22,985 nt of DNA from a virus: IMG/VR virus record IMGVR_UViG_3300025128_000361, positions 1-22,985 of that record, one strand, 5' to 3'. Below, one piece after another: positions 5,892 through 16,844 of the stretch. Positions within the stretch are counted from its first letter, which is position 1, and every line of letters starts with the position of its first letter. The position numbers and the translations under genes are program-made. The notes beneath the pieces were generated by a model, which saw only the letters and a list, made by a program, of their open reading frames with translations, did no database searches and was not told where the DNA came from.

Positions 5892-6311
5892 TTATACACT
5901 CACTATGTCATCAGGATTTAATATAGTGGCAATAACTTCGTCATCGTTGATGATACGAACTTCTGCACCATCATCGAGTTTAAACCTAGAGCCGCTATAT
6001 CGTCCTATCAAAACCCATTGTTTCTCTTGACACCAAGGCTTGTCGCCAAACCTCTTAGTATCATTAAAACACAAAGGTCCCATTTTTACCACATAGGCCA
6101 CTACTGTAGCCAATGCCTCTCTGTTTATTGTCTCTTTTGCTAAGACTATACCACCTTTCGATGTTTTTTTACCTGCATAAGGTAAAACCAACATTCGCCA
6201 TCCTGTAGGCTGTGGCATCCTGTCGAGCACTGAGCCATCTAATTTTTCAGGGTCTAGCACTCGCTCCTCAGGACTTACATAAGCATCGTCTAATTTTTTT
6301 TCGTCACTCAT
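5892..6311 (-). CDS. GroES-like co-chaperonin
   Basis: This encodes 139 residues from ATG 6311, which overlaps the upstream stop by eight bases (ATGAGTGA) and is preferred to a GTG nine bases earlier. After a charged N-terminal extension of about 33 residues comes a Cpn10 beta-barrel: PTGWRMLVLPYAGKKTSKGG, IVLAKETINREALATVVAYV, CQEKQWVLIGRYSGSRFKL and VRIINDDEVIATI. The Gly-Gly-Ile-Val-Leu of residues 53-57 matches the GroES mobile loop that binds GroEL, so it may recruit host GroEL for capsid folding, as T4 gp31 does. An inserted Cys-containing loop (CFNDTKRFGDKPWCQ) replaces the usual roof region. Placement among head genes beside scaffold and capsid agrees with that role. No GroEL is in the window. 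Confidence 0.88.
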   Translation of the reverse strand: MSDEKKLDDAYVSPEERVLDPEKLDGSVLDRMPQPTGWRMLVLPYAGKKTSKGGIVLAKETINREALATVVAYVVKMGPLCFNDTKRFGDKPWCQEKQWVLIGRYSGSRFKLDDGAEVRIINDDEVIATILNPDDIVSV

Positions 6312-6498
6312 TATTGTCACTTTTTTTCAGCATGTCTCCTATGCCATTTGTAATATAGTATAAAGCAGAAAGTTCACCTTGCAAATATTTGTAGTGTTCC
6401 ATATCTTTCAGGCCACCACTCATCATAGTTTCTTGAATTTGTTTCTCTCTGTCCTCTAAAAGTTTTTTTAGCTTATCGAGAAAATCTATGTCATTCAT
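6304..6498 (-). CDS. small helical head-module protein, 64 aa
   Basis: This encodes 64 residues, almost all predicted helix: FLDKLKKLLEDREKQIQETM, then GLKDMEHYKYLQGELSALYY, ending GDMLKKSDNNE. It has the look of small proteins encoded beside phage portal genes (M-x-x-x-F-x-x-x-L-x-x-x-L-x-x-R-x-x-x-I-x-x-x-x-x-x-G-x-x-x-x-x-x-Y-x-x-x-x-G). The start overlaps the upstream stop as ATGA and the 3' end overlaps the GroES-like gene by eight bases. Function unknown, perhaps a portal- or scaffold-associated factor. Confidence 0.82.
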   Translation of the reverse strand: MNDIDFLDKLKKLLEDREKQIQETMMSGGLKDMEHYKYLQGELSALYYITNGIGDMLKKSDNNE

Positions 6499-6756: not shown

Positions 6757-9240
6757 TTAACTCCTAAATTTTTGTTCCAATTCTAATAATTTTAAATCGG
6801 CATTTTGTTTAAGTCTATTCTTAGACACCCCAAGTTTATCATCAGCTATAGCTTTTTGTATATCCAATCTTTGTAACTGTAATTGACTGTCTACTTGTTT
6901 CTCTTGTGCTCTTTGATTTTGTCTTGCAATAAATTGCTCTGACTCTTGGTCAAGTTCCTTGTCTCGCAACTGTAATTCAGCTTTTCTTATCTCTACTAAT
7001 GGGTCAGCATCCCCACCCATACCAATAGATTGTAGAAATTGTGCTGTTAAGGCAGCTAATATTGGCGAACTAAATTGGTCTAATATCATTTGTATTTCTT
7101 GAATAATCATTTGTGCCTCTTGTGGAGAAACCATCTGAATCTGTTGTTGTACGGCTTGTATTCTTTCCATCACCTCAGGTGGCATTTGTTGTTGTGCTAC
7201 CTGCACAGATAAAAACTGTAGATGTTGCATACAATGACTAACTATAAGTGCTTGTATTTGTGGATTCTGCATCACAACTGGAGTTAGAAACAAACCACTA
7301 TGTGCTTGTAAATGTGCCTCATGGTTCTGTCCCTCGAAGGCTTGAGCTGGCTGTCCCATCAAAAAACCTGAATTTTCTAGTCCAGCATCGATTGGTTTAG
7401 GTGTCATATCAGGCGGTGGTTGAATTAAAGCATCGACATTATCAACACCTAACGCACCATACATTCTTTTATATGCCTCATATATGCCCAAAGGCCCATG
7501 TATCTGCGGATTAGATTGCACCATTTGTAGTAACTCTTGTGCTAGAGTCACTCTTTGACTTTGTGAAAATATATTTGGGTCAGATACAGGAATAATATCT
7601 ACCTTGTCATCAAAATCTTGTTGTTTTATTTCTTGGTTCCCTGAACCAACTGCATACTCATATACTGGTGGTAAGAACTCATTAAATACTTTGGCAAGCA
7701 AGCCGAACTCTAACTTTTGGGCATAATGTAATCTTTTGTGAATAGCACTCATAACTTTGGTGCCCCTTTCCAGCAAAGCGACAGTAGTGCCAACAGGCAT
7801 GGCTTGGTTCATATCACCGACATTCATATCGGCAATAGCCGCAAATCTTTTACCTGAGTCTACTAATATACCAAGCAACTGCATAAGAACATTGCTCGGC
7901 TCTTTTATGGGTAGAGGTATCAAATTCTCTCTCAATGAACCGCCAGTAGTATCTATATCTCTGAACTCACCCGGCTGTAATGGGTCATCTTCATCCCTAA
8001 TACGCATACCTCTAGCCTTGAATCCAGCTGGCAAGTTGGCTAGTGTACCTGCATCAATAAGTTGTCTTAGTATAGAAGTAGATGCTTTAGACAGACCACC
8101 AATCATGTGCGATAAACCAAGGCCATAAAAGCCTAATCCGGGTAAAAACTTGTATTGCACAAAATAATTTATTTTGTTTTTCATAGGGTCGTTTGAGTCA
8201 TAGTTTCTACGAATAGACAAGACTCTTCTCGAGTTCTCGTCTATTGTTACGATGTAAGGTAGTTTAAGACCTGAAACCTCACCGTTTTCTTTTTTATCTT
8301 CGAAACCCTCTATGTCAAGAACAGTATGCACCTCAAAAACATTCCTGTTTCTTTCTTCTTTGTAACTAGGCTCAACACCTTGTATTTCATCGATAGCCTC
8401 TTCTATATCAGACATTTCAGGGTTGTAGCTTTCACTTTTTATATCGACATCGGCATAAAAACCTGCGAGCTGTTGTTTTTTTATCTCGTTTGTTGACATG
8501 CTAATTACATGAGTAATTCTCTCAGCAGAACTAATATCAGTAGCCTCGTAAGGTACTATTAAGTCCTCAGGCGGTACAAATTTTGATACTGCTCTATTCA
8601 AGGATTGGTCGTAATATATTTTTTTGAAAGCAGACCCAGCTAAAGGTAAATAAAATAAAAGTTGGTCTAACTCAGGGTCGTACTCATCCATTACATTCAT
8701 AATGTAATAGTTCATAAACTCTTGAACTCGCTCTGCTTGATTTTCTGTTTCTACCGTTCTCGCACCGATTATTTCTGTTTTTACTGGTCCTTTTGCAGGT
8801 AACATTTCCTTGTAACTTTGAGCTTGGAACTGGGTAACGGCTTCTGCCAAAATCGGATGAACAACTCCTGAACTGCCTTCAAAAGGTTGTGACCTAGATT
8901 CATCAAATTTCATACCGAGGTATTTTAGACCGTCTGTGTATGTCCTTTCCCACTCACTGCGTGATTCTTTGTCACTTCTTATAGAACTTAATAAATCGTT
9001 AGATATTTTTTGCAATACATCGTCACCAAGTACATCGACCAAGTTCATGTTGAAGTCATCTACAAGTTGAGGCTCTTGGTTTATTTCATCGTCTACTAAA
9101 AGTTGTTCTTCATTTACTAGAATCTTTGCTGCCTCTTTTATTTGGTCAGCTCTACTCTGTTCAGGTTGTATGCTAACAGCTGAACCTTGTTTTTTTATGT
9201 TCTCGTCATTTTCTGTGCCTAATTGTTTTTCAATAGCCAT
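6757..9240 (-). CDS. portal protein
   Basis: This encodes 827 residues, the dodecameric head-tail connector in well-studied phages. The typical clip/wing region starts near residue 85: SSIRSDKESRSEWERTYTDG, LKYLGMKFDESRSQPFEGSS, VVHPILAEAVTQFQAQSYKE and MLPAKGPVKTEIIG. Later come FYLPLAGSAFKKIYYD, FVPPEDLIVPYEATDISSAE, FLPGLGFYGLGLSHMIGGL and MNVGDMNQAMPVGTTVALLE. The length and these blocks fit the large P22-type portals of podovirus-like marine phages. The last 150 residues are Gln-rich and helical (MERIQAVQQQIQMVSPQEAQ), consistent with a barrel-forming C-terminus. It overlaps the upstream small gene as ATGA and stands in the terminase-portal-scaffold-capsid order. Confidence 0.93.
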   Translation of the reverse strand: MAIEKQLGTENDENIKKQGSAVSIQPEQSRADQIKEAAKILVNEEQLLVDDEINQEPQLVDDFNMNLVDVLGDDVLQKISNDLLSSIRSDKESRSEWERTYTDGLKYLGMKFDESRSQPFEGSSGVVHPILAEAVTQFQAQSYKEMLPAKGPVKTEIIGARTVETENQAERVQEFMNYYIMNVMDEYDPELDQLLFYLPLAGSAFKKIYYDQSLNRAVSKFVPPEDLIVPYEATDISSAERITHVISMSTNEIKKQQLAGFYADVDIKSESYNPEMSDIEEAIDEIQGVEPSYKEERNRNVFEVHTVLDIEGFEDKKENGEVSGLKLPYIVTIDENSRRVLSIRRNYDSNDPMKNKINYFVQYKFLPGLGFYGLGLSHMIGGLSKASTSILRQLIDAGTLANLPAGFKARGMRIRDEDDPLQPGEFRDIDTTGGSLRENLIPLPIKEPSNVLMQLLGILVDSGKRFAAIADMNVGDMNQAMPVGTTVALLERGTKVMSAIHKRLHYAQKLEFGLLAKVFNEFLPPVYEYAVGSGNQEIKQQDFDDKVDIIPVSDPNIFSQSQRVTLAQELLQMVQSNPQIHGPLGIYEAYKRMYGALGVDNVDALIQPPPDMTPKPIDAGLENSGFLMGQPAQAFEGQNHEAHLQAHSGLFLTPVVMQNPQIQALIVSHCMQHLQFLSVQVAQQQMPPEVMERIQAVQQQIQMVSPQEAQMIIQEIQMILDQFSSPILAALTAQFLQSIGMGGDADPLVEIRKAELQLRDKELDQESEQFIARQNQRAQEKQVDSQLQLQRLDIQKAIADDKLGVSKNRLKQNADLKLLELEQKFRS

Positions 9241-9419
9241 CAGTGAATTACCCTCGGTCTATGGACAAAATCTAAATCAAAAATGTCAGTTAATTCACCT
9301 GTCAGCACATACCCTTGCCCCTCAGCAATAATACGAGCATTTTCCTCCGTATCCGTATGTATGTCAGGCCCAGTATATTCTTGACCGTTGTGTATAAATT
9401 TTGTCGCAAAAATTTTCAT
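9240..9419 (-). CDS. small protein between terminase and portal, 59 aa
   Basis: An ATG at 9419, three bases after the terminase stop, opens 59 codons that end in TGA overlapping the portal ATG (ATGA). The product starts MKIFATKFIHNGQEYTGPDI and includes ENARIIAEGQGYVLTGELTD, ending RPRVIH. It looks like a small alpha/beta domain (strand, helix with E-E-N-A-R-I-I-A, strand). Tight fit between two essential genes and a sensible translation make it real although it is below usual length cut-offs. Position suggests a head or connector-related accessory; function unknown. Confidence 0.85.
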   Translation of the reverse strand: MKIFATKFIHNGQEYTGPDIHTDTEENARIIAEGQGYVLTGELTDIFDLDFVHRPRVIH

Positions 9420-9422
9420 CTC

Positions 9423-10907
9423 TCAATAATACACTACTCTGTTTTTTTTCAAAAATCTTACATCTTCTTGATAATCTTCATCAAGTGATACAAAACCACC
9501 TTGTCGGAAACGCATAAGTGCCATAGTAGAGCTATCGCAATAATCATCATGGTCACCGTATGGAAAAGCTGCCATTTCTTCTATAACATCATCAGCAAAA
9601 CTGTGGTCAGGTGCCCATACCATACCCGATTCGAAAATAGGAGCTACACTATTCATTCTAGCAACTTTGTCTTGCCCTCTACTCGGTGCATAAGCAGTTA
9701 CAGGTATGCCCATCCTTCTTAGTTCTTGTGTTAGAGGTGTACCACTCGCTTTTGCCTCTATTAAAACACAGTCAGGTTTCCAATATCTATATTCCTCTTG
9801 TGCTAACCTTTTCAATTCGGGAAAATCACAACGCACTCTTTTAGCATCTAATAAAATTATTTGGTCTGCGTTTTCATCACCAAGATTGAATATTGCCCAT
9901 GTGGTGATTGCAGAGTAGTCAGCTGTGTCTTTTTTAGAGAAAGCCGTGTCATAACTTTGTATTACATAACTATACTCAGGAACTTCGTCTTCCTCCCATC
10001 TCCGCCACCATTCTCTCTTTACTATAGAACCCTCTTCGGCAGTCGGATTTTGCATCCACTGACTGTTCCATTTACCAATAGGCAAAGATGCCTTTACTCC
10101 TAGTAGTTCTTCTTTTTTCCAAAACTCAGGCCACAGAGGTTCTTCTGACTCAGGCATAATTGCTGGGAACTCAATCAACTCCCATTTGTCTGCATTATCT
10201 TCACCTTGTTTTTTCAGCAACTTGCCAACCAAATCTTTTGTGCTCCATCTTGTCATTACTATCACGATTGTGCCACCCGGCTGTAGCCTTTGTCTTGGAC
10301 CTGAGGTGTACCATTCATAACAGGATTCTAGTGCCTTTGGTGACAAGGCATCTTGTTCAGATATTGGGTCATCTATTAATAACAAATCAGCACCTCGTCC
10401 AGTAATAGCACCACCTGTACCTGCGGCAAAAAACTCTCCGTCTTTGTTACTTGTCCACCTACCAGCAGATTTATTATCGGCTTGTAATTTCAAGTCAGGA
10501 AAAACCTGTTGATATTCTGCACTGTCTATTATGTTTCTTACTTTTCTACCGAACCTCACAGCCAACTCTGCTGTGTGTGTGGTTTGTATAATCTTTAAGT
10601 TTCCATGTTTACCCATCATCCAAGCTGGTAAATAGGTAGAGGCAAATTCAGATTTTGTGTGTCTAGGTGGTAGACAAACAATTAGCCTTTTGAGTTTACC
10701 TTCACCTATTTTGTTGAATTTGTCTGCGATTATTTTGTGATGTCTACCCTCTATAAAATCAGGCCAAAGATGTTTTACAAAAGAAAGAAAATCACCTTGA
10801 CAACTCTCTTGCATGTTTAGTTGGTCATATCTATTTATTAGGGCTAAAGCCTCTGCCTTATCTTGTTCTGACAATATATCGAAGTCTTTGAAAGATAAAT
10901 CACTCAT
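9423..10907 (-). CDS. terL: terminase large subunit (packaging ATPase and nuclease)
   Basis: This encodes 494 residues and powers DNA packaging into the procapsid. The ATPase domain has a Walker A-type loop CLPPRHTKSE at 78-87, a Walker B LLLIDD at 175-180 and a coupling-type motif around VMTRWSTKDL at 218-227. The RNase-H-like nuclease domain has acidic residues in SYDTAF (D320), LIEAKASG (E384) and GDHDDYCDS (D452-D458), so both activities look intact. The terminal YWKPDCVLIEAKASGTPL block is typical of the Terminase_6 type. There is no Shine-Dalgarno before ATG 10907; the preceding bases are a T run ending a hairpin, and a 19-codon leader ORF overlaps the start as ATGA. No small terminase gene was recognised. 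Confidence 0.95.
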   Translation of the reverse strand: MSDLSFKDFDILSEQDKAEALALINRYDQLNMQESCQGDFLSFVKHLWPDFIEGRHHKIIADKFNKIGEGKLKRLIVCLPPRHTKSEFASTYLPAWMMGKHGNLKIIQTTHTAELAVRFGRKVRNIIDSAEYQQVFPDLKLQADNKSAGRWTSNKDGEFFAAGTGGAITGRGADLLLIDDPISEQDALSPKALESCYEWYTSGPRQRLQPGGTIVIVMTRWSTKDLVGKLLKKQGEDNADKWELIEFPAIMPESEEPLWPEFWKKEELLGVKASLPIGKWNSQWMQNPTAEEGSIVKREWWRRWEEDEVPEYSYVIQSYDTAFSKKDTADYSAITTWAIFNLGDENADQIILLDAKRVRCDFPELKRLAQEEYRYWKPDCVLIEAKASGTPLTQELRRMGIPVTAYAPSRGQDKVARMNSVAPIFESGMVWAPDHSFADDVIEEMAAFPYGDHDDYCDSSTMALMRFRQGGFVSLDEDYQEDVRFLKKNRVVYY

Positions 10908-10963
10908 AAATAAAAACGGGCAAACAAATAGGTAGTGACATAGTATCTGTTCGCCCTAAGCAT
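10904..10963 (-). CDS. candidate leader peptide ORF before terL, 19 aa
   Basis: Downstream of the predicted promoter, an ATG at 10963 opens 19 codons, MLRANRYYVTTYLFARFYL, ending in TGA that overlaps the terL ATG as ATGA. The peptide has four Tyr and two Phe in nineteen residues. The reading frame spans the hairpin that precedes terL, and terL has no ribosome binding site of its own, so translating this ORF could both open the hairpin and deliver ribosomes to terL. The ATG has only an AGG three bases upstream and lies close to the predicted transcript start, so initiation is uncertain. A chance ORF of this length is quite possible. Confidence 0.4.
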   Translation of the reverse strand: MLRANRYYVTTYLFARFYL

Positions 10964-10972
10964 AAGCCTAGG
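10918..10972 (-). promoter_or_regulatory. tandem hairpins in the terL leader, attenuator- or terminator-like
   Basis: On the minus strand GGGCGAACA (10956-10948) can pair with TGTTTGCCC (10926-10918), nine pairs with one G-T wobble and a 21-base loop, followed at once by GTTTTTATTT. Just upstream, CCTAGGC and GCTTAGG (10972-10966 and 10961-10955) form a second small stem with a TTAT loop, sharing two bases with the first, so the two are partly mutually exclusive. The structure may end lysis-module transcripts, attenuate transcripts from the adjacent promoter, or hold the terL start. Confidence 0.55.
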
Positions 10973-10975
10973 TTT

Positions 10976-11004
10976 AGTATATCTCTACTTATATTGTGTG
11001 CCAA
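10976..11004 (-). promoter_or_regulatory. sigma70-type promoter for the packaging/head operon
   Basis: TTGGCA (11004-10999) and TATACT (10981-10976), each five of six to consensus, are separated by exactly 17 bases. The -35 box lies in the last codons of the lysozyme gene. The predicted start is near 10969, giving a leader of about 60 bases before terL. It is the best promoter match found on the minus strand and sits at the boundary between the lysis and packaging modules. Confidence 0.7.
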
Positions 11005-11435
11005 TCAGGATTACCGACAAATAACATAGCCTCTGCCTCTCTTCTCCTAATTAAACCATCTAACACTTTGCCACCAGCTTTATTCCACCTTCTTATTTCG
11101 CAAGGCACAGCATCGTAATCTTCTGCATTTAATTTTTTAAGCAAACCGGATTTTTTTAATGATGAGGGACCGAGATTGTATGTCCACGCAACTAAGGCAT
11201 CGAACTGGTGTTGCATCAAGGGTACCTTGACTAAATCATTAACATAGTTCTCAAACTCTTCTATATCCCCATCGAATCTTTCATCTGCGTATGCCTGTGA
11301 CCAAACATCGCCCTCCTTTACATCTTTAGTTGAACCCCAACCACATGTCCAAACACCGCCTGAGCATTTGTAACTTTCTAACTCACAACCTTCGAACTTT
11401 TTAATTAAAGATTTACCCTCTCCTGAAATATTCAT
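10989..11435 (-). CDS. endolysin, GH24 lysozyme
   Basis: This encodes 148 residues from ATG 11435, which has GGGGAG seven bases upstream and overlaps the nuclease stop as TGATG; a start five codons earlier lacks a good site. It is a T4/P22-type muramidase that cuts peptidoglycan between MurNAc and GlcNAc. The catalytic triad E-8-(D/C)-5-T is exact: E15, C24 and T30, within GKSLIKKFEGCELESYKCSG and GVWTCGWGST. Further blocks LVAWTYNLGPSSLKKSGLL and RRWNKAGGKVLDGLIRRREA EAM match the family; length is normal. Cys replaces the Asp of T4 lysozyme at C24, as in other family members. No signal or SAR segment is seen, so release should need a holin. Confidence 0.95.
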   Translation of the reverse strand: MNISGEGKSLIKKFEGCELESYKCSGGVWTCGWGSTKDVKEGDVWSQAYADERFDGDIEEFENYVNDLVKVPLMQHQFDALVAWTYNLGPSSLKKSGLLKKLNAEDYDAVPCEIRRWNKAGGKVLDGLIRRREAEAMLFVGNPDWHTI

Positions 11436-11815
11436 CAATAGTCTCCCCAAACTTTAATTTTTTTGCCACCGTAATATTCTACAGCATGTCCTTCATCGAT
11501 TAATATTTTACAAATATCTTTGCCATCTTCTGTGTAAGGGATACCCAAGATACGACCATATTTACCTTTGCCGAAAGACCTAACTTTTATTTTACCTTGA
11601 CATAATTCTTCGAGTCGAGCCTTTGCCGCTAAGCCAAGTTTCTTCTCTGCTAAGTCTCTTGTTCTCGATTCAGGAGTATCTATACCTTGTAGTCTTACTC
11701 TTTGTTTGTGTAATTTGACATCGAATCCTAAATCCAAACAACAGTCAAAAGTGTCACCATCTACGATTCGTTCTAGTGTGGCATTGTAAATATATGCCTC
11801 AGGATTGTCACTCAT
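11435..11815 (-). CDS. thermonuclease-family (SNase-like) nuclease
   Basis: This encodes 126 residues with the staphylococcal nuclease fold. The catalytic and Ca-binding residues are all present: D21 in RIVDGDTFD, R41 and D46-T47-P-E49 in RVRLQGIDTPES, and R88 in KGKYGRILG. The family cleaves single- and double-stranded DNA and RNA in a Ca-dependent way. No signal peptide is visible, although the family is often exported. It is coupled by overlaps to a spanin-type lipoprotein upstream (eight bases) and the lysozyme downstream, so it is expressed late with lysis genes; it may degrade host DNA at lysis or protect against superinfection, both inference. Confidence 0.92.
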   Translation of the reverse strand: MSDNPEAYIYNATLERIVDGDTFDCCLDLGFDVKLHKQRVRLQGIDTPESRTRDLAEKKLGLAAKARLEELCQGKIKVRSFGKGKYGRILGIPYTEDGKDICKILIDEGHAVEYYGGKKIKVWGDY

Positions 11816-12711: not shown

Positions 12712-13077
12712 TTAGTTTGCCAGTGGGTTGCCGTCTTTTTCTAGTTCTTCTATTTTTTCTTTAAGTTCCTCTATATCTTCTTTCGAATCAGATAGCTGTA
12801 CTTTTATTGCCGCTAATTCACTTTTGATTACAGAAACATCAGGTATATTAATGCTGTCTAATTCTTTTTCTAAAAAATTTACACTTGTTTCTATACCTAC
12901 AAATCTTTCTTCGATGACTTGTACTTCATTTTCGTTTTCGCTGATACCACCAATTTTTGCCTCAAGGTTCTCTAACCTATTTATGTAAGTGGCACCTGTG
13001 TACCCAAAGCCAGCAAGTGTACCGACTATTGATACTAAAGCTATAAGTTGTGTAGTTTTACTTTGAAACCAATCCAT
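12712..13077 (-). CDS. membrane-anchored coiled-coil protein
   Basis: This encodes 121 residues. One N-terminal membrane segment (TTQLIALVSIVGTLAGFGYT, residues 8-27) leads into a coiled coil that covers the rest (NRLENLEAKIGGISENENEV, later KSELAAIKVQLSDSKEDIEE) and ends in an acidic Lys/Glu helix. A strong AGGAGGA precedes the ATG, which overlaps the upstream stop as TAATG. The fold resembles a single-pass spanin- or XhlA-type protein, but the family is not recognised. It lies in the lysis region next to the spanin pair; a lysis-timing or membrane-scaffold role is inference. Confidence 0.82.
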   Translation of the reverse strand: MDWFQSKTTQLIALVSIVGTLAGFGYTGATYINRLENLEAKIGGISENENEVQVIEERFVGIETSVNFLEKELDSINIPDVSVIKSELAAIKVQLSDSKEDIEELKEKIEELEKDGNPLAN

Positions 13078-15395
13078 TATTCCTCCTGCAACTGTGGTTG
13101 GTTTTGTAACAAGATATTCATGGTATTTATATTGTCACCTGCCAAACCATAAAAAGCAGTTATGTTATCACTAAGGGATATATTACTATATATTTCTTTT
13201 GCTTGATACCACTCTGCTTGTTTTGGTATTTCTGCTGTCCTGTAACTGTCAAAACCGGGTACAAAACCTAAGTAAGCTACAAGTGTAGTTTGGTCTGCAT
13301 ACTCTCCTGTTTGTTCCTGTTCTTGTTGTATTTCTTCTTGTTGATTTCTAATATTGTTAGCTATGATTTGACTTGCGATTTCATCTGCCTCACTGGCCGA
13401 CACAACACCTGATGTTGCACTGCTAATGTCTCCTTGCAGATTTGTTATCTGTACTTCTGCCATAACTACTAGACCACCGCCTACACTTGGTAAAGGTATC
13501 AAATTAGTTGTGACACTACCTACTTGGGAATCACCACTACCACCACCTAAATTTTGTGACATAGATAGCAAATTATTAGTCTGCACCGATGCTGATGTAA
13601 TTTGGTCACTTATACTTGGTGAACTGCTTGTAGAGTTAGAACTTCCAGCAAAGCTACTGCTAGAGCTTGCATGTGCATTAGAACTGGCACTGTTACCTCC
13701 TGTACCATAGCCTCCTGAACTAGAATTTTGCGTACCATAATTAACACTATTCGCTGCCGCTTTTATAGAATCAGCGACAATGTTCATCTTCATAGCTTTT
13801 CTATCTTTATTATCAGCAACTAACTCTTCTTCATGCAGTTCTAATATTTCTTCTTCTTCAGAAACTTCTTCTTCTAGTTCTGCAACTTGTTCTTGTTCCT
13901 CTCTAATATCTTCTAAAACTTCTTCTACTTCTTGTTCAATGACAGCTTCTTCTCTTTGTTCTCTATCAGGTCTAGCATCCATTTGTGCTACTTCTTCGTG
14001 AGACTCTTCGTGTCTGCCTCTTTCATTTTCAAACCATTCATCTAATTCATCTATGCTATCGAACTCTACAAAAGTTGTTGGTTCTTGAAAGTCATCTATT
14101 AAAACAGTTTCTATTATTACTAACTCTGATATCAAAATATCATCACCTAAAGAAAGTAATGCTTGTGGCACATCATATTCAGGTAGAGGTGCTAACTGAC
14201 TTATTGGTTGTAAGTTATATGGAATAGGTCCATCTAGGCCTCCGTGTGGACTATGCAAGTCTTCATGCCTAGATGTTATGCTCATAGGTGCAAAACCATC
14301 ATCATTAAAATCAAAAAATATTGGCTCATCTAATAACGATTCTTCAAATATTTCTGCATCTCTGATAATATTTATATCTGCAAAAGGGTCACCTAATATG
14401 AAATCTTCATTAGAAAACATATCATCATGTCCAAACATATCTTCATGTTGCCCATCATTTCTTTGTCCACCAAAGTTCATATCATCTTCTTGAAAGAAAG
14501 CTACTGATTCTTCTTGTCTGTAGCCTGAACAAAATGGTCTATACTGTGGGTCTTCCTCACATTGTAGTTCGTCATAAGCATCATCATAGTTTGGACAGCT
14601 TGTGCTATATAGCTGAGATAAATTACATTGTTGATTAAGTAAAGCATCAGCATAACCAGCACAACTAGAATCGTTTAGAGGGTTACTACAATCTATGCTA
14701 TGGTCAGAACCATCGCTGTAAAGAGAACCACCATTTTCTAAACTTGTATTAAAAGATGTATTGTTCCAATCTGTATTTACACAACTACTTGAATTAGTAG
14801 TACCTGTATTACATTCATCGTGATATAAGTATGTATAAATTTTATTAGAGTCAGGTCCTTGTTCACCTATAAGTACATCGTGATTATTTATATCTAGTTC
14901 TCCGTATCTATATTCAAATGTATGATTTGACCATAATATTATTTCAAAACTATTATCTGAGCCGCTTCGGTTGAACTCTCTCATATCGTACCAACCAAAT
15001 ATCATTTTAGATGAATCGCCATAAGATTTTATTCTTGAATTACTATCTCTAATTAAATCTGTCCAAAAAGGATATAGTGTATTTTTGTATGCTGGCAAAG
15101 GGTCAGGAGTGTAGTCCCCACAATAGTCTGCATAAGCTGTGGATGTCAAACCAAAATGTAAACAACCATTCGTTGCTATTCTTGCCGAGTCAAAAGTGTT
15201 GCCATAAAAGTTAAAGTTAAAAGAAAAATCTATAGCTGGTGATATGCCATCATCTGCTATTTCATAAGCTAGTTCACCTTCAAAAGCACCAGCATTTGTT
15301 TGTAAATGATATAGAGGTTGATTAGGTTCGTATATGTATTGTGTTTGTGCTTGCAAGCAAAATACTAAAACTAACCATAAAATTCTTCTAAACAT
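13077..15395 (-). CDS. large exported protein with NIDO-like adhesion domain and conserved phage C-terminus
   Basis: This encodes 772 residues. A signal peptide (RRILWLVLVFCLQAQ, cleavage near residue 16) is followed at about 40-190 by a nidogen-like (NIDO) domain: DDGISPAIDFSFNFNFYGNT, IATNGCLHFGLTS, NTLYPFWTDLIRD and FEIILWSNHTFEYRYGELDI. A Cys- and Asn-rich stretch (about 195-290), an acidic region, a Glu-rich coiled coil (about 465-530) and a Ser/Gly-rich linker follow. The last 70 residues (TTLVAYLGFVPGFDSYRTAE and LSDNITAFYGLAGDNINTMN) resemble conserved ends of marine phage proteins. GAGG precedes the ATG, and the 5' end overlaps the Asn-rich gene by 25 bases. Adhesion or virion-surface function is inferred; alternatively it acts in the host periplasm. 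Confidence 0.85.
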   Translation of the reverse strand: MFRRILWLVLVFCLQAQTQYIYEPNQPLYHLQTNAGAFEGELAYEIADDGISPAIDFSFNFNFYGNTFDSARIATNGCLHFGLTSTAYADYCGDYTPDPLPAYKNTLYPFWTDLIRDSNSRIKSYGDSSKMIFGWYDMREFNRSGSDNSFEIILWSNHTFEYRYGELDINNHDVLIGEQGPDSNKIYTYLYHDECNTGTTNSSSCVNTDWNNTSFNTSLENGGSLYSDGSDHSIDCSNPLNDSSCAGYADALLNQQCNLSQLYSTSCPNYDDAYDELQCEEDPQYRPFCSGYRQEESVAFFQEDDMNFGGQRNDGQHEDMFGHDDMFSNEDFILGDPFADINIIRDAEIFEESLLDEPIFFDFNDDGFAPMSITSRHEDLHSPHGGLDGPIPYNLQPISQLAPLPEYDVPQALLSLGDDILISELVIIETVLIDDFQEPTTFVEFDSIDELDEWFENERGRHEESHEEVAQMDARPDREQREEAVIEQEVEEVLEDIREEQEQVAELEEEVSEEEEILELHEEELVADNKDRKAMKMNIVADSIKAAANSVNYGTQNSSSGGYGTGGNSASSNAHASSSSSFAGSSNSTSSSPSISDQITSASVQTNNLLSMSQNLGGGSGDSQVGSVTTNLIPLPSVGGGLVVMAEVQITNLQGDISSATSGVVSASEADEIASQIIANNIRNQQEEIQQEQEQTGEYADQTTLVAYLGFVPGFDSYRTAEIPKQAEWYQAKEIYSNISLSDNITAFYGLAGDNINTMNILLQNQPQLQEE

Positions 15396-16474
15396 TGTCC
15401 TCTACTTTTATATTTAGAAGCAAAAGGTTTATCACTTAAAGGAGAAGATATCTTTTCTCCCCACGACCTTTTTCTCCAATTTGGGTTGATTTCTTCCATA
15501 CATTTTCTTAAAAAATCTTCTTCGGCTTGTTTTCTGTCAGGTCTTTCCCAAGCGTTTGATACCCACTCTGCTTTTGCCTCATCACCAATTTTTCCATTAT
15601 AAGGACAAGGTGTGCCTGCTTTCCACATAGCTGAAAAGACTCTTTCATCCTGACACAGTAAAGCAACTGCGGCTACTTTCATCCCCATATCATAAACATA
15701 TTTAGATAATTTTAATCTTTCACAGTTTTCATCTCTAACACTCTTACCACCTGAGAAACCAAATATCTGTCCTTGATATGCAGCAGATAGTCCAGTTGTA
15801 CAAAGGTCCTGAGAATAACTCATTATGCTAGGTGCTATTGCAGATGCAGGTGGTGCTTCTGTTTTAACATTTTGATTGATAGTTTGTACTGACTCAGATT
15901 TATTATAGTTTCGGTTAGTGTTATCCGACTTAGAATTACTTTCATTATAGTTGCTATTATTAGTATTTACATTTGAGTTACTATTGCTTTCGTTGTAATT
16001 TCGGTTGGTATTATCAGAGGTACTATTACTTTCATTATAGTTGGTGTTGGTATTATTTGTAGTTGTATTGTTATTAACAGTTTGGTCTACAGTTGAGTTT
16101 ACAGTCGAGTTTGAGTTTGAGTTATTGTAGTTAGTATTAGTATTATTCGATGTAGAGTTATTGTTATTATTATTTGTATTATTTGAAGTAGAAGTCGATG
16201 TGTTGTTGTTAGTATTTGTGTTATTTGCAGTCGAACTATTATTATTGTAATTTGTGTTTGTTGCAGTAGATGTAGAAGTATTATTGTTTGTATTGGTATT
16301 ATTATTGGTATTGTTATTAGTATTGTTATTAGTGTTATTAGTTGTTGTATCGTTTGAAGTTGTTACCGCCTCACAATATTCTGTACCAGCAGGACAAGTG
16401 CCAGTCGCTTGAGCTTGTATTTCGTTGCCACACCATAAAAAAACGAAAAATAGTATAACTCTATTTATCTTCAC
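15371..16474 (-). CDS. exported Asn/Thr/Ser-repeat protein with conserved C-terminal domain
   Basis: This encodes 367 residues from GTG 16474, chosen because it gives a clean signal peptide (VKINRVILFFVFLWCGNEIQ, cleavage near AQA at 23) with AAGAG eight bases upstream; the ATG at 16510 lacks a site. Residues about 39-195 are almost pure Asn, Thr and Ser with units such as NTNYNESNS, likely a flexible stalk. From 205, a folded domain begins (ASAIAPSIMSYSQDLC) and includes RDENCERLKLSKYVYDMGMK and AAVALLCQDERVFSAMW. The A-P-S-I-M-S...C...DENCERLKLS order is, from memory, conserved in marine phage proteins, and six or more Cys suggest an oxidising compartment. It overlaps the genes on both sides, so it is probably made with the following NIDO protein. 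Role unknown. Confidence 0.82.
   Translation of the reverse strand: MKINRVILFFVFLWCGNEIQAQATGTCPAGTEYCEAVTTSNDTTTNNTNNNTNNNTNNNTNTNNNTSTSTATNTNYNNNSSTANNTNTNNNTSTSTSNNTNNNNNNSTSNNTNTNYNNSNSNSTVNSTVDQTVNNNTTTNNTNTNYNESNSTSDNTNRNYNESNSNSNVNTNNSNYNESNSKSDNTNRNYNKSESVQTINQNVKTEAPPASAIAPSIMSYSQDLCTTGLSAAYQGQIFGFSGGKSVRDENCERLKLSKYVYDMGMKVAAVALLCQDERVFSAMWKAGTPCPYNGKIGDEAKAEWVSNAWERPDRKQAEEDFLRKCMEEINPNWRKRSWGEKISSPLSDKPFASKYKSRGQCLEEFYG
15890..16360 (-). repeat. Asn-rich low-complexity repeat tract
   Basis: About 470 bases of short AAT/AAC/ACT-based repeats in the gene 15371-16474, with units of about nine residues such as NTNYNESNS and shorter Asn/Thr runs. Units vary in sequence, so this is a degenerate tandem repeat. 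Such tracts are prone to length change by slippage and would vary stalk length without breaking the frame when units are lost in multiples of three bases. Confidence 0.85.
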
Positions 16475-16844
16475 CTTTAAAACTCTTGGATGAGTTGGAT
16501 GTGCCAGCATATAGACCAAACCATGCGGCTCCTGCTCCAACTATGATTGATATTAAACCTGATTGTTCTAGTGAGGGTTCAGCGAGAGCCATAAACCACA
16601 TAGTAGAATAATAAAGTAGAAATATGTAGACACTAAGAAAAACTCGAGGAAATATTCTCCATGAGTCTACAGCTCTCGCTAGATGAATCCATTTTTGATG
16701 AGGATTTACATTTTTATCGTCTTCTAGTTCTCTGATTTTATCTTTCAGAGCACCTATCTCTTCGACCATAGCCATGAACTTTTTGAGGTCCATTTCGACC
16801 TCATTCCTATCCATGTCACCTCTGAATCTGCTGTCTTCGTTCAT
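16461..16844 (-). CDS. two-pass membrane protein, holin candidate
   Basis: This encodes 127 residues from ATG 16844, which overlaps the upstream stop as ATGA; an earlier in-frame start at 16895 would lie well inside the neighbouring gene. A charged coiled-coil N-terminus (NEVEMDLKKFMAMVEEIGAL, then KDKIRELEDDKNVNPHQKW) leads to two membrane segments: VFLSVYIFLLYYSTMWFMA (about 66-84) and LISIIVGAGAAWFGLYAGT (about 97-115). The short hairpin of two helices with charged tails and a lysis-region position fit a class II holin, which would release the lysozyme; the coiled coil is an unusual extra. No direct family match is recognised. Confidence 0.75.
   Translation of the reverse strand: MNEDSRFRGDMDRNEVEMDLKKFMAMVEEIGALKDKIRELEDDKNVNPHQKWIHLARAVDSWRIFPRVFLSVYIFLLYYSTMWFMALAEPSLEQSGLISIIVGAGAAWFGLYAGTSNSSKSFKGEDK

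Follow-up and report, generated by a model that had tools for sequence, protein, structure and literature searches.

The stretch of DNA analyzed here (the window) is a single linear virus record of 22,985 bases, and its major genes are carried on the minus strand. The gene order on that strand is endolysin, leader, terL (the terminase large subunit gene) and portal. We annotated the following features at the locus, all on the minus strand:

10989–11450, minus strand: endolysin (phrog_7), the upstream neighbor of terL in essentially all relatives of the group
10999–11004, minus strand: −35-like hexamer TTGGCA, inside the last codons of the endolysin; not a conserved −35 in all relatives
10976–10981, minus strand: −10 box TATACT; relatives have [TAG]ATA[CA]T in a constant position, preceded by TGn when the first base is not T
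10969, minus strand: predicted transcription start, an invariant A, 7 nt past the last base of the −10 box
10958–10969, minus strand: hairpin 1 (S1), starting at the predicted transcription start; AGGC (10969–10966) pairs with GCTT (10961–10958)
10918–10956, minus strand: hairpin 2 (S2), with arms 10956–10944 and 10930–10918 forming 13 pairs including G-U; strong covariation in relatives
10931–10943, minus strand: apical loop of S2, CTATGTCACTACC, with the near-invariant core GUCRCUAYC (10939–10931)
10908–10917, minus strand: linker GTTTTTATTT joining S2 to terL; its first G is invariant, the rest variable, with a lineage-specific U-run
10904–10963, minus strand: 19-codon ORF MLRANRYYVTTYLFARFYL, overlapping terL as ATGA; judged incidental
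9423–10907, minus strand: terL (phrog_38, E = 3.7e-111), with its ATG at 10907 and no Shine-Dalgarno sequence
6757–9240, minus strand: portal, downstream of terL

Upstream of terL, 245 of 248 loci have this same endolysin, against an early impression that the gene varies. Several other features of the window were recorded along the way. The gap between terL and portal is occupied by a 59-codon ORF (MKIFATKFIHNGQEYTGPDIHTDTEENARIIAEGQGYVLTGELTDIFDLDFVHRPRVIH; 9240–9419, minus strand) that adjoins the portal start and is likely a small real gene. The head gene block includes a GroES-like co-chaperonin (phrog_3188; 5892–6320, minus strand), and a protein with long Asn/Thr/Ser repeats (15371–16540, minus strand) lies beside a 772-residue protein (13077–15395, minus strand) that has no PHROGs match. 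The phages that carry the locus form a large and widespread uncultured group, and the cultured phages closest to them are marine. GTDB genomes contained a single TerL relative (L423; 78% identity over 216 residues), encoded on a 4.4-kb contig in a gammaproteobacterial MAG, giving a weak hint as to the hosts of these phages.

Two covarying hairpins ahead of terL

The leader in the window folds with a z-score of −3.4, with none of 200 shuffled sequences equally stable, and the minimum-energy fold holds S1 and S2 simultaneously. The original prediction, made from this sequence, had described two stems before terL. One is small and the other has 13 bp, and both are borne out as non-random by the z-score and by the covariation reported below. 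Its accompanying claim that the two hairpins are mutually exclusive finds no support in the fold, in which both stems are present at once.

TerL searches of IMG/VR yielded several hundred loci. Throughout the TerL group of the window, we observed the same two hairpins directly before terL, with a −10-like box ahead of them. Extending the collection to divergent members gave 104 variants with 49 different S2 helices, of which the 48 that were free of gaps were used to measure covariation. S2 was paired in 96.4% of cells across these helices, and both sides changed in nine out of 12 pairs, a count as high as this being reached in 0 of 500 shuffles. Doubly changed cells numbered 110 (13.6 in shuffles). 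In a control with the partner column displaced by one, pairing fell to 45%–47%. S1 showed similar covariation, over fewer pairs. Mapped onto a tree of TerL from 102 dereplicated loci, the changes in the S2 pairs comprised 18 double events of the compensatory kind and 60 single ones that preserved pairing, versus six that broke it.

The types of pair that were retained allowed us to ask which molecule is folded. The 587 cells of the first 12 S2 pairs comprised 438 Watson–Crick pairs, 128 G-U pairs, a single A-C and 20 others, while column shuffles gave about 169 G-U and 48 A-C (minimum of 34 A-C in 1000 shuffles). A DNA palindrome would treat G-U and A-C alike, so an excess of 128 to 1 indicates that what is conserved is base pairing in the coding-strand RNA, and excludes that the pairs are maintained for a packaging site or a protein-binding dyad. 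An inverted repeat that adjoins terL could in principle serve at the DNA level, as a packaging start or as a protein-binding palindrome, but with the pairing maintained on one strand we consider this exceedingly improbable. Judged by its substitution pattern, S1–S2 is a structured RNA of the coding strand.

The predicted promoter and the proposed attenuator

Ahead of the hairpins, the TTGGCA and TATACT hexamers of the original prediction are present on the minus strand with 17 nt between them (11004–10999 and 10981–10976). A promoter scan alone performed no better than chance (34 matches vs. 32.4 expected). Across the variants, 6 nt separated the −10 box from the invariant A in 103 out of 104. 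TG was absent before the box in all 42 variants in which the first base of the box (position −12) is T, and TGn always preceded it in the 62 variants in which that base is A or G, with four joint switches of the −12 base and TGn on the TerL tree. With this −10 hexamer, TGn compensation and fixed purine spacing, the sequence would behave as a terL-specific promoter of the extended −10, sigma70 type, and standard −10-to-start distances would place the transcription start at 10969.

Almost all S1 mismatches fell at two positions upstream of the invariant A, a clustering that is explained if transcription starts at 10969. The same start would remove competition between the stems. The bases common to S1 and S2 are at most the two G's at 10956 and 10955, which pair with 10971 and 10972 in a longer form of S1, and these partners lie upstream of the predicted start and would be untranscribed.

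It had been suggested that a terminator hairpin, ribosome progress through the 19-codon ORF, or both, gate the transcription of terL. The window taken alone does display such a layout, with a stem followed by GTTTTTATTT and an ORF coupled to terL through ATGA. The run of U's after the second stem is present as described, but the tail was U-rich in only six out of 117 variants, and the commonest linkers (GCTT, GATT, GACT and GACTTTATAAAA) have no U-run. The ORF is likewise present, but recurred only in two near-identical contigs (L002 and L003), limiting it to the population of the window; an ORF of at least 15 codons starting from ATG in the stem-1 region was found in five out of 117 variants. 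The original prediction had named relatives lacking the stem or the ORF as grounds for its refutation, and relatives kept the stems but missed the ORF. Attenuation by termination is thus left with neither a conserved U-tract nor an alternative fold, the stems folding together without competition given a start at 10969, and leader-peptide gating is left with an ORF that is not conserved among relatives. We regard an attenuator or leader peptide as highly improbable. From their distribution among the variants, the U-tract and the 19-codon ORF are accidents of lineage and not conserved functions, and a terminator or leader-peptide role may apply within the single lineage of the window. The broader idea that terminase expression is controlled here fared better: a predicted promoter of its own and a structured leader make control of terL probable, but not by the attenuator or leader peptide first envisaged.

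Another small ORF, starting from the S2 loop (AUGUCACUACCU...), was considered and rejected, as its first codon is AUG in 45 out of 117 variants and ACG or UCG elsewhere.

Gap-type and overlap-type loci

We counted the presence of the element in loci with a recognizable endolysin upstream of terL. In loci with an endolysin–terL gap of at least 80 nt, the element was detected by pattern in 324 out of 325, and the one exception (L471) has a diverged loop and the same two stems by folding. In overlap-type loci, in which terL starts 1–11 nt inside the end of the endolysin, the element was absent in 29 out of 29. The overlap type was nested among element-bearing lineages on the TerL tree, with two state changes and with L471 placed beside an overlap-type sister; under a midpoint root, the element was likely lost in the overlap-type sisters. 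The association with terL is exclusive. Each of 18 whole contigs had one copy of the element, at terL, and no copy turned up elsewhere in the contigs examined. A pattern match in L381 was rejected as a chance match in repeat DNA.

These sisters bear on the role of the RNA. A packaging motor that needs an RNA could not lose it, and overlap-type sisters do without the element, which argues for an expression element that can be replaced by coupling to the preceding gene. We conclude that the element probably acts in cis on terL expression and is replaceable by translational coupling. An alternative is a separate small RNA that acts in trans, as a packaging RNA, as a host regulator or, in the way of cabRNA, as a signal detected by host immunity. 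The terminase region of staphylococcal phages offers a precedent in cabRNA (PMC10686824), and phi29 packages its DNA with the help of an essential pRNA (PMC6765105), but the overlap-type sisters have closely related TerL proteins, so the motor does not need the element, which moreover keeps to terL and has no conserved terminator that would release a small RNA. We consider a trans-acting RNA very unlikely. The natural swap between a promoter with hairpins and an overlap of terL with the lysis gene would represent two interchangeable modes of terminase expression.

Several observations were made at the margins of this distribution. The GC-rich, diverged element of L471 (L471:1421–1503) retains both stems (z = −6.7), but its loop is altered and the start codon is TTG; it sits inside a clade otherwise without the element. 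An outgroup terL (L475:1421–1503) has a GGGCGGG/CCCGCCC hairpin shortly before its ATG, with TATACT upstream. This is possibly a remote version of the element; the hairpin is weak, with a non-significant fold z-score of −1.5, and was left out of the counts. Neither the element nor a shared structure was seen in the cultured or named relatives HTVC027P, HTVC023P and phage 023Pt_psg01, or in phages of their types. Residue 191 of TerL (window numbering) is Lys in 331 out of 333 element-type TerLs, and Thr or Ser in overlap-type TerLs and in L471. The change falls on a single branch, and the tracking of the element by K191 is only a lead.

A candidate translational operator and its relation to known leaders

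The loop core GUCRCUAYC was present in 104 out of 104 kept variants, partly by construction since the core served as the search anchor; in an independent check, all 80 loci fetched by TerL alone carried it. A sequence-conserved loop on a covarying stem is as expected of a recognition site, and S2 combines such a loop with a variable stem in the manner of translational operators. A G directly 3′ of S2 was found in 104 out of 104 variants. The position of S2 is also that of an operator, in being a leader hairpin near the start codon: the distance to the terL start codon was 4–18 nt in all loci measured, with a linker of 4 nt in 201 loci and of 7–18 nt in the remainder. The absence of a Shine-Dalgarno sequence before terL, another feature of the original prediction, holds in the window, whereas most neighboring genes have one. 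Opening the terL start region would cost 14.8 kcal/mol, the highest value among the window genes tested. In relatives this opening cost averages 10.4 kcal/mol, a moderate value that speaks against a simple block. By eye, the loop can be paired with the opening codons of terL in some lineages but not in others, and this pairing was rejected.

Nearly all other members also have no Shine-Dalgarno sequence, which we found only in a single clade; its 12 loci have the longest linkers (17–18 nt). In this clade the Shine-Dalgarno sequence is good, the hairpin and loop are still intact, and the S2 stem lies at the edge of the ribosome footprint. Together with the 4–18 nt range of linkers, this suggests that simple blocking of the start would be stricter in some members than in others.

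By analogy with a known phage operator, we propose, with a probability of about 0.52, that S2 in the leader RNA is a cis-acting translational operator that gates terL translation. A terL-specific extended −10 promoter would start the mRNA at about 10969, and the entire 5′ leader would consist of back-to-back hairpins, S1 from the 5′ end and S2 with a stem of 12–14 bp. Ending 4–18 nt before the start codon, S2 would sit within or at the edge of the ribosome landing site, and its folded stem would hold terL initiation low. A loop-recognizing protein, perhaps TerL itself or another late protein, would set the timing and amount of terminase, and the control of terL would thereby be separate from that of the co-oriented lysis genes upstream. 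The effect of the leader on translation, its binding partner and the direction of control are parts of this scheme that we infer. An operator is favored because a covarying stem that carries a conserved loop and adjoins the start codon follows the plan of phage translational operators such as that of T4 gene 43.

We weighed two further roles for the hairpins. As a ribosome-recruiting leader, S2 and its loop would aid the start of terL translation without a Shine-Dalgarno sequence, acting as an activator and not a repressor. The rarity of Shine-Dalgarno sequences fits this, as do a stem just 4 nt from the AUG, a conserved loop that could be a docking site, and the coincidence of the sole Shine-Dalgarno clade with the longest linker. 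The retention of hairpin and loop in that clade suggests, however, that S2 is not a simple substitute for a Shine-Dalgarno sequence, and a search of the phage DNA for a conserved sequence complementary to the loop gave just scattered matches in a few contigs; we think recruitment unlikely. Alternatively, S1 and S2 could guard the terL mRNA from decay, or constitute a processing site, without directly affecting the ribosome. With S1 beginning at the predicted start, no 5′ end is left unpaired, and a long stem with few mismatches fits protection or processing, but such a role explains neither the near-invariant loop nor the constant ending of the structure within 18 nt of the start codon, and it seems to us an improbable one.

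A bolder reading is that the S2 loop recruits the ribosome to an AUG 4 nt away without a Shine-Dalgarno sequence, or else that TerL binds S2 to control its own synthesis. This we put forward tentatively, as a possibility we would not expect to prevail; if true, a bacterial virus would here have a structured start site, or a terminase would regulate its own synthesis through RNA. Little is known of what determines how much packaging motor a phage makes, and when, and the leader described here comes with a covariance model and a loop motif that are concrete enough for bench tests and for the annotation of metagenomes.

We compared the leader with known RNAs. Rfam 15 gave no match in the window at gathering score, and five relatives searched with E values of up to 5 yielded a single chance match, to a snoRNA and away from the element. 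The element had no DNA match in 50,697 GenBank phage records, and no description of such a terminase-gene leader RNA was found in the literature (open-licence papers). On this basis the two-hairpin leader would be a new RNA family, a cis-acting leader RNA of a known kind for which the mechanism is proposed.

Intrinsic terminators and leader-peptide attenuators have the hairpin, U-run and short ORF that the terL leader displays in one lineage; the U-run and the ORF are not conserved. The nearest RNA by location is cabRNA, which derives from terS or terL of staphylococcal phages or from their boundary and is defined by its activation of CdnE03 (PMC10686824). Both are structured RNAs of the terminase region, but cabRNAs share no sequence (PMC10686824), whereas the terL leader is intergenic and conserved. 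Packaging in phi29 requires pRNA (PMC6765105), likewise a small structured RNA but a working part of the motor, in contrast to the terL element, which sisters with closely related TerL lack. In T4, the leader of gene 32 is under autogenous control through a pseudoknot 67 nt upstream and an A+U-rich track (PMC3014915). It too is the structured leader of a DNA-binding phage protein, but neither a pseudoknot nor an A+U track was seen in the terL leader. The closest parallel in plan is the operator of gene 43, the DNA polymerase gene of T4 and RB69, where hairpins of 16–18 bases have proven binding to gp43; the loop bases are conserved between phages while hairpin length differs, and the loop matters for polymerase binding (PMC3014915). 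In both systems, a phage enzyme that handles DNA has a hairpin in its leader, close to the start codon, with the differences that the gene here is terL, the stem has 12–14 bp, the loop has 13–17 nt or more, and binding of a protein is hypothesized by analogy.
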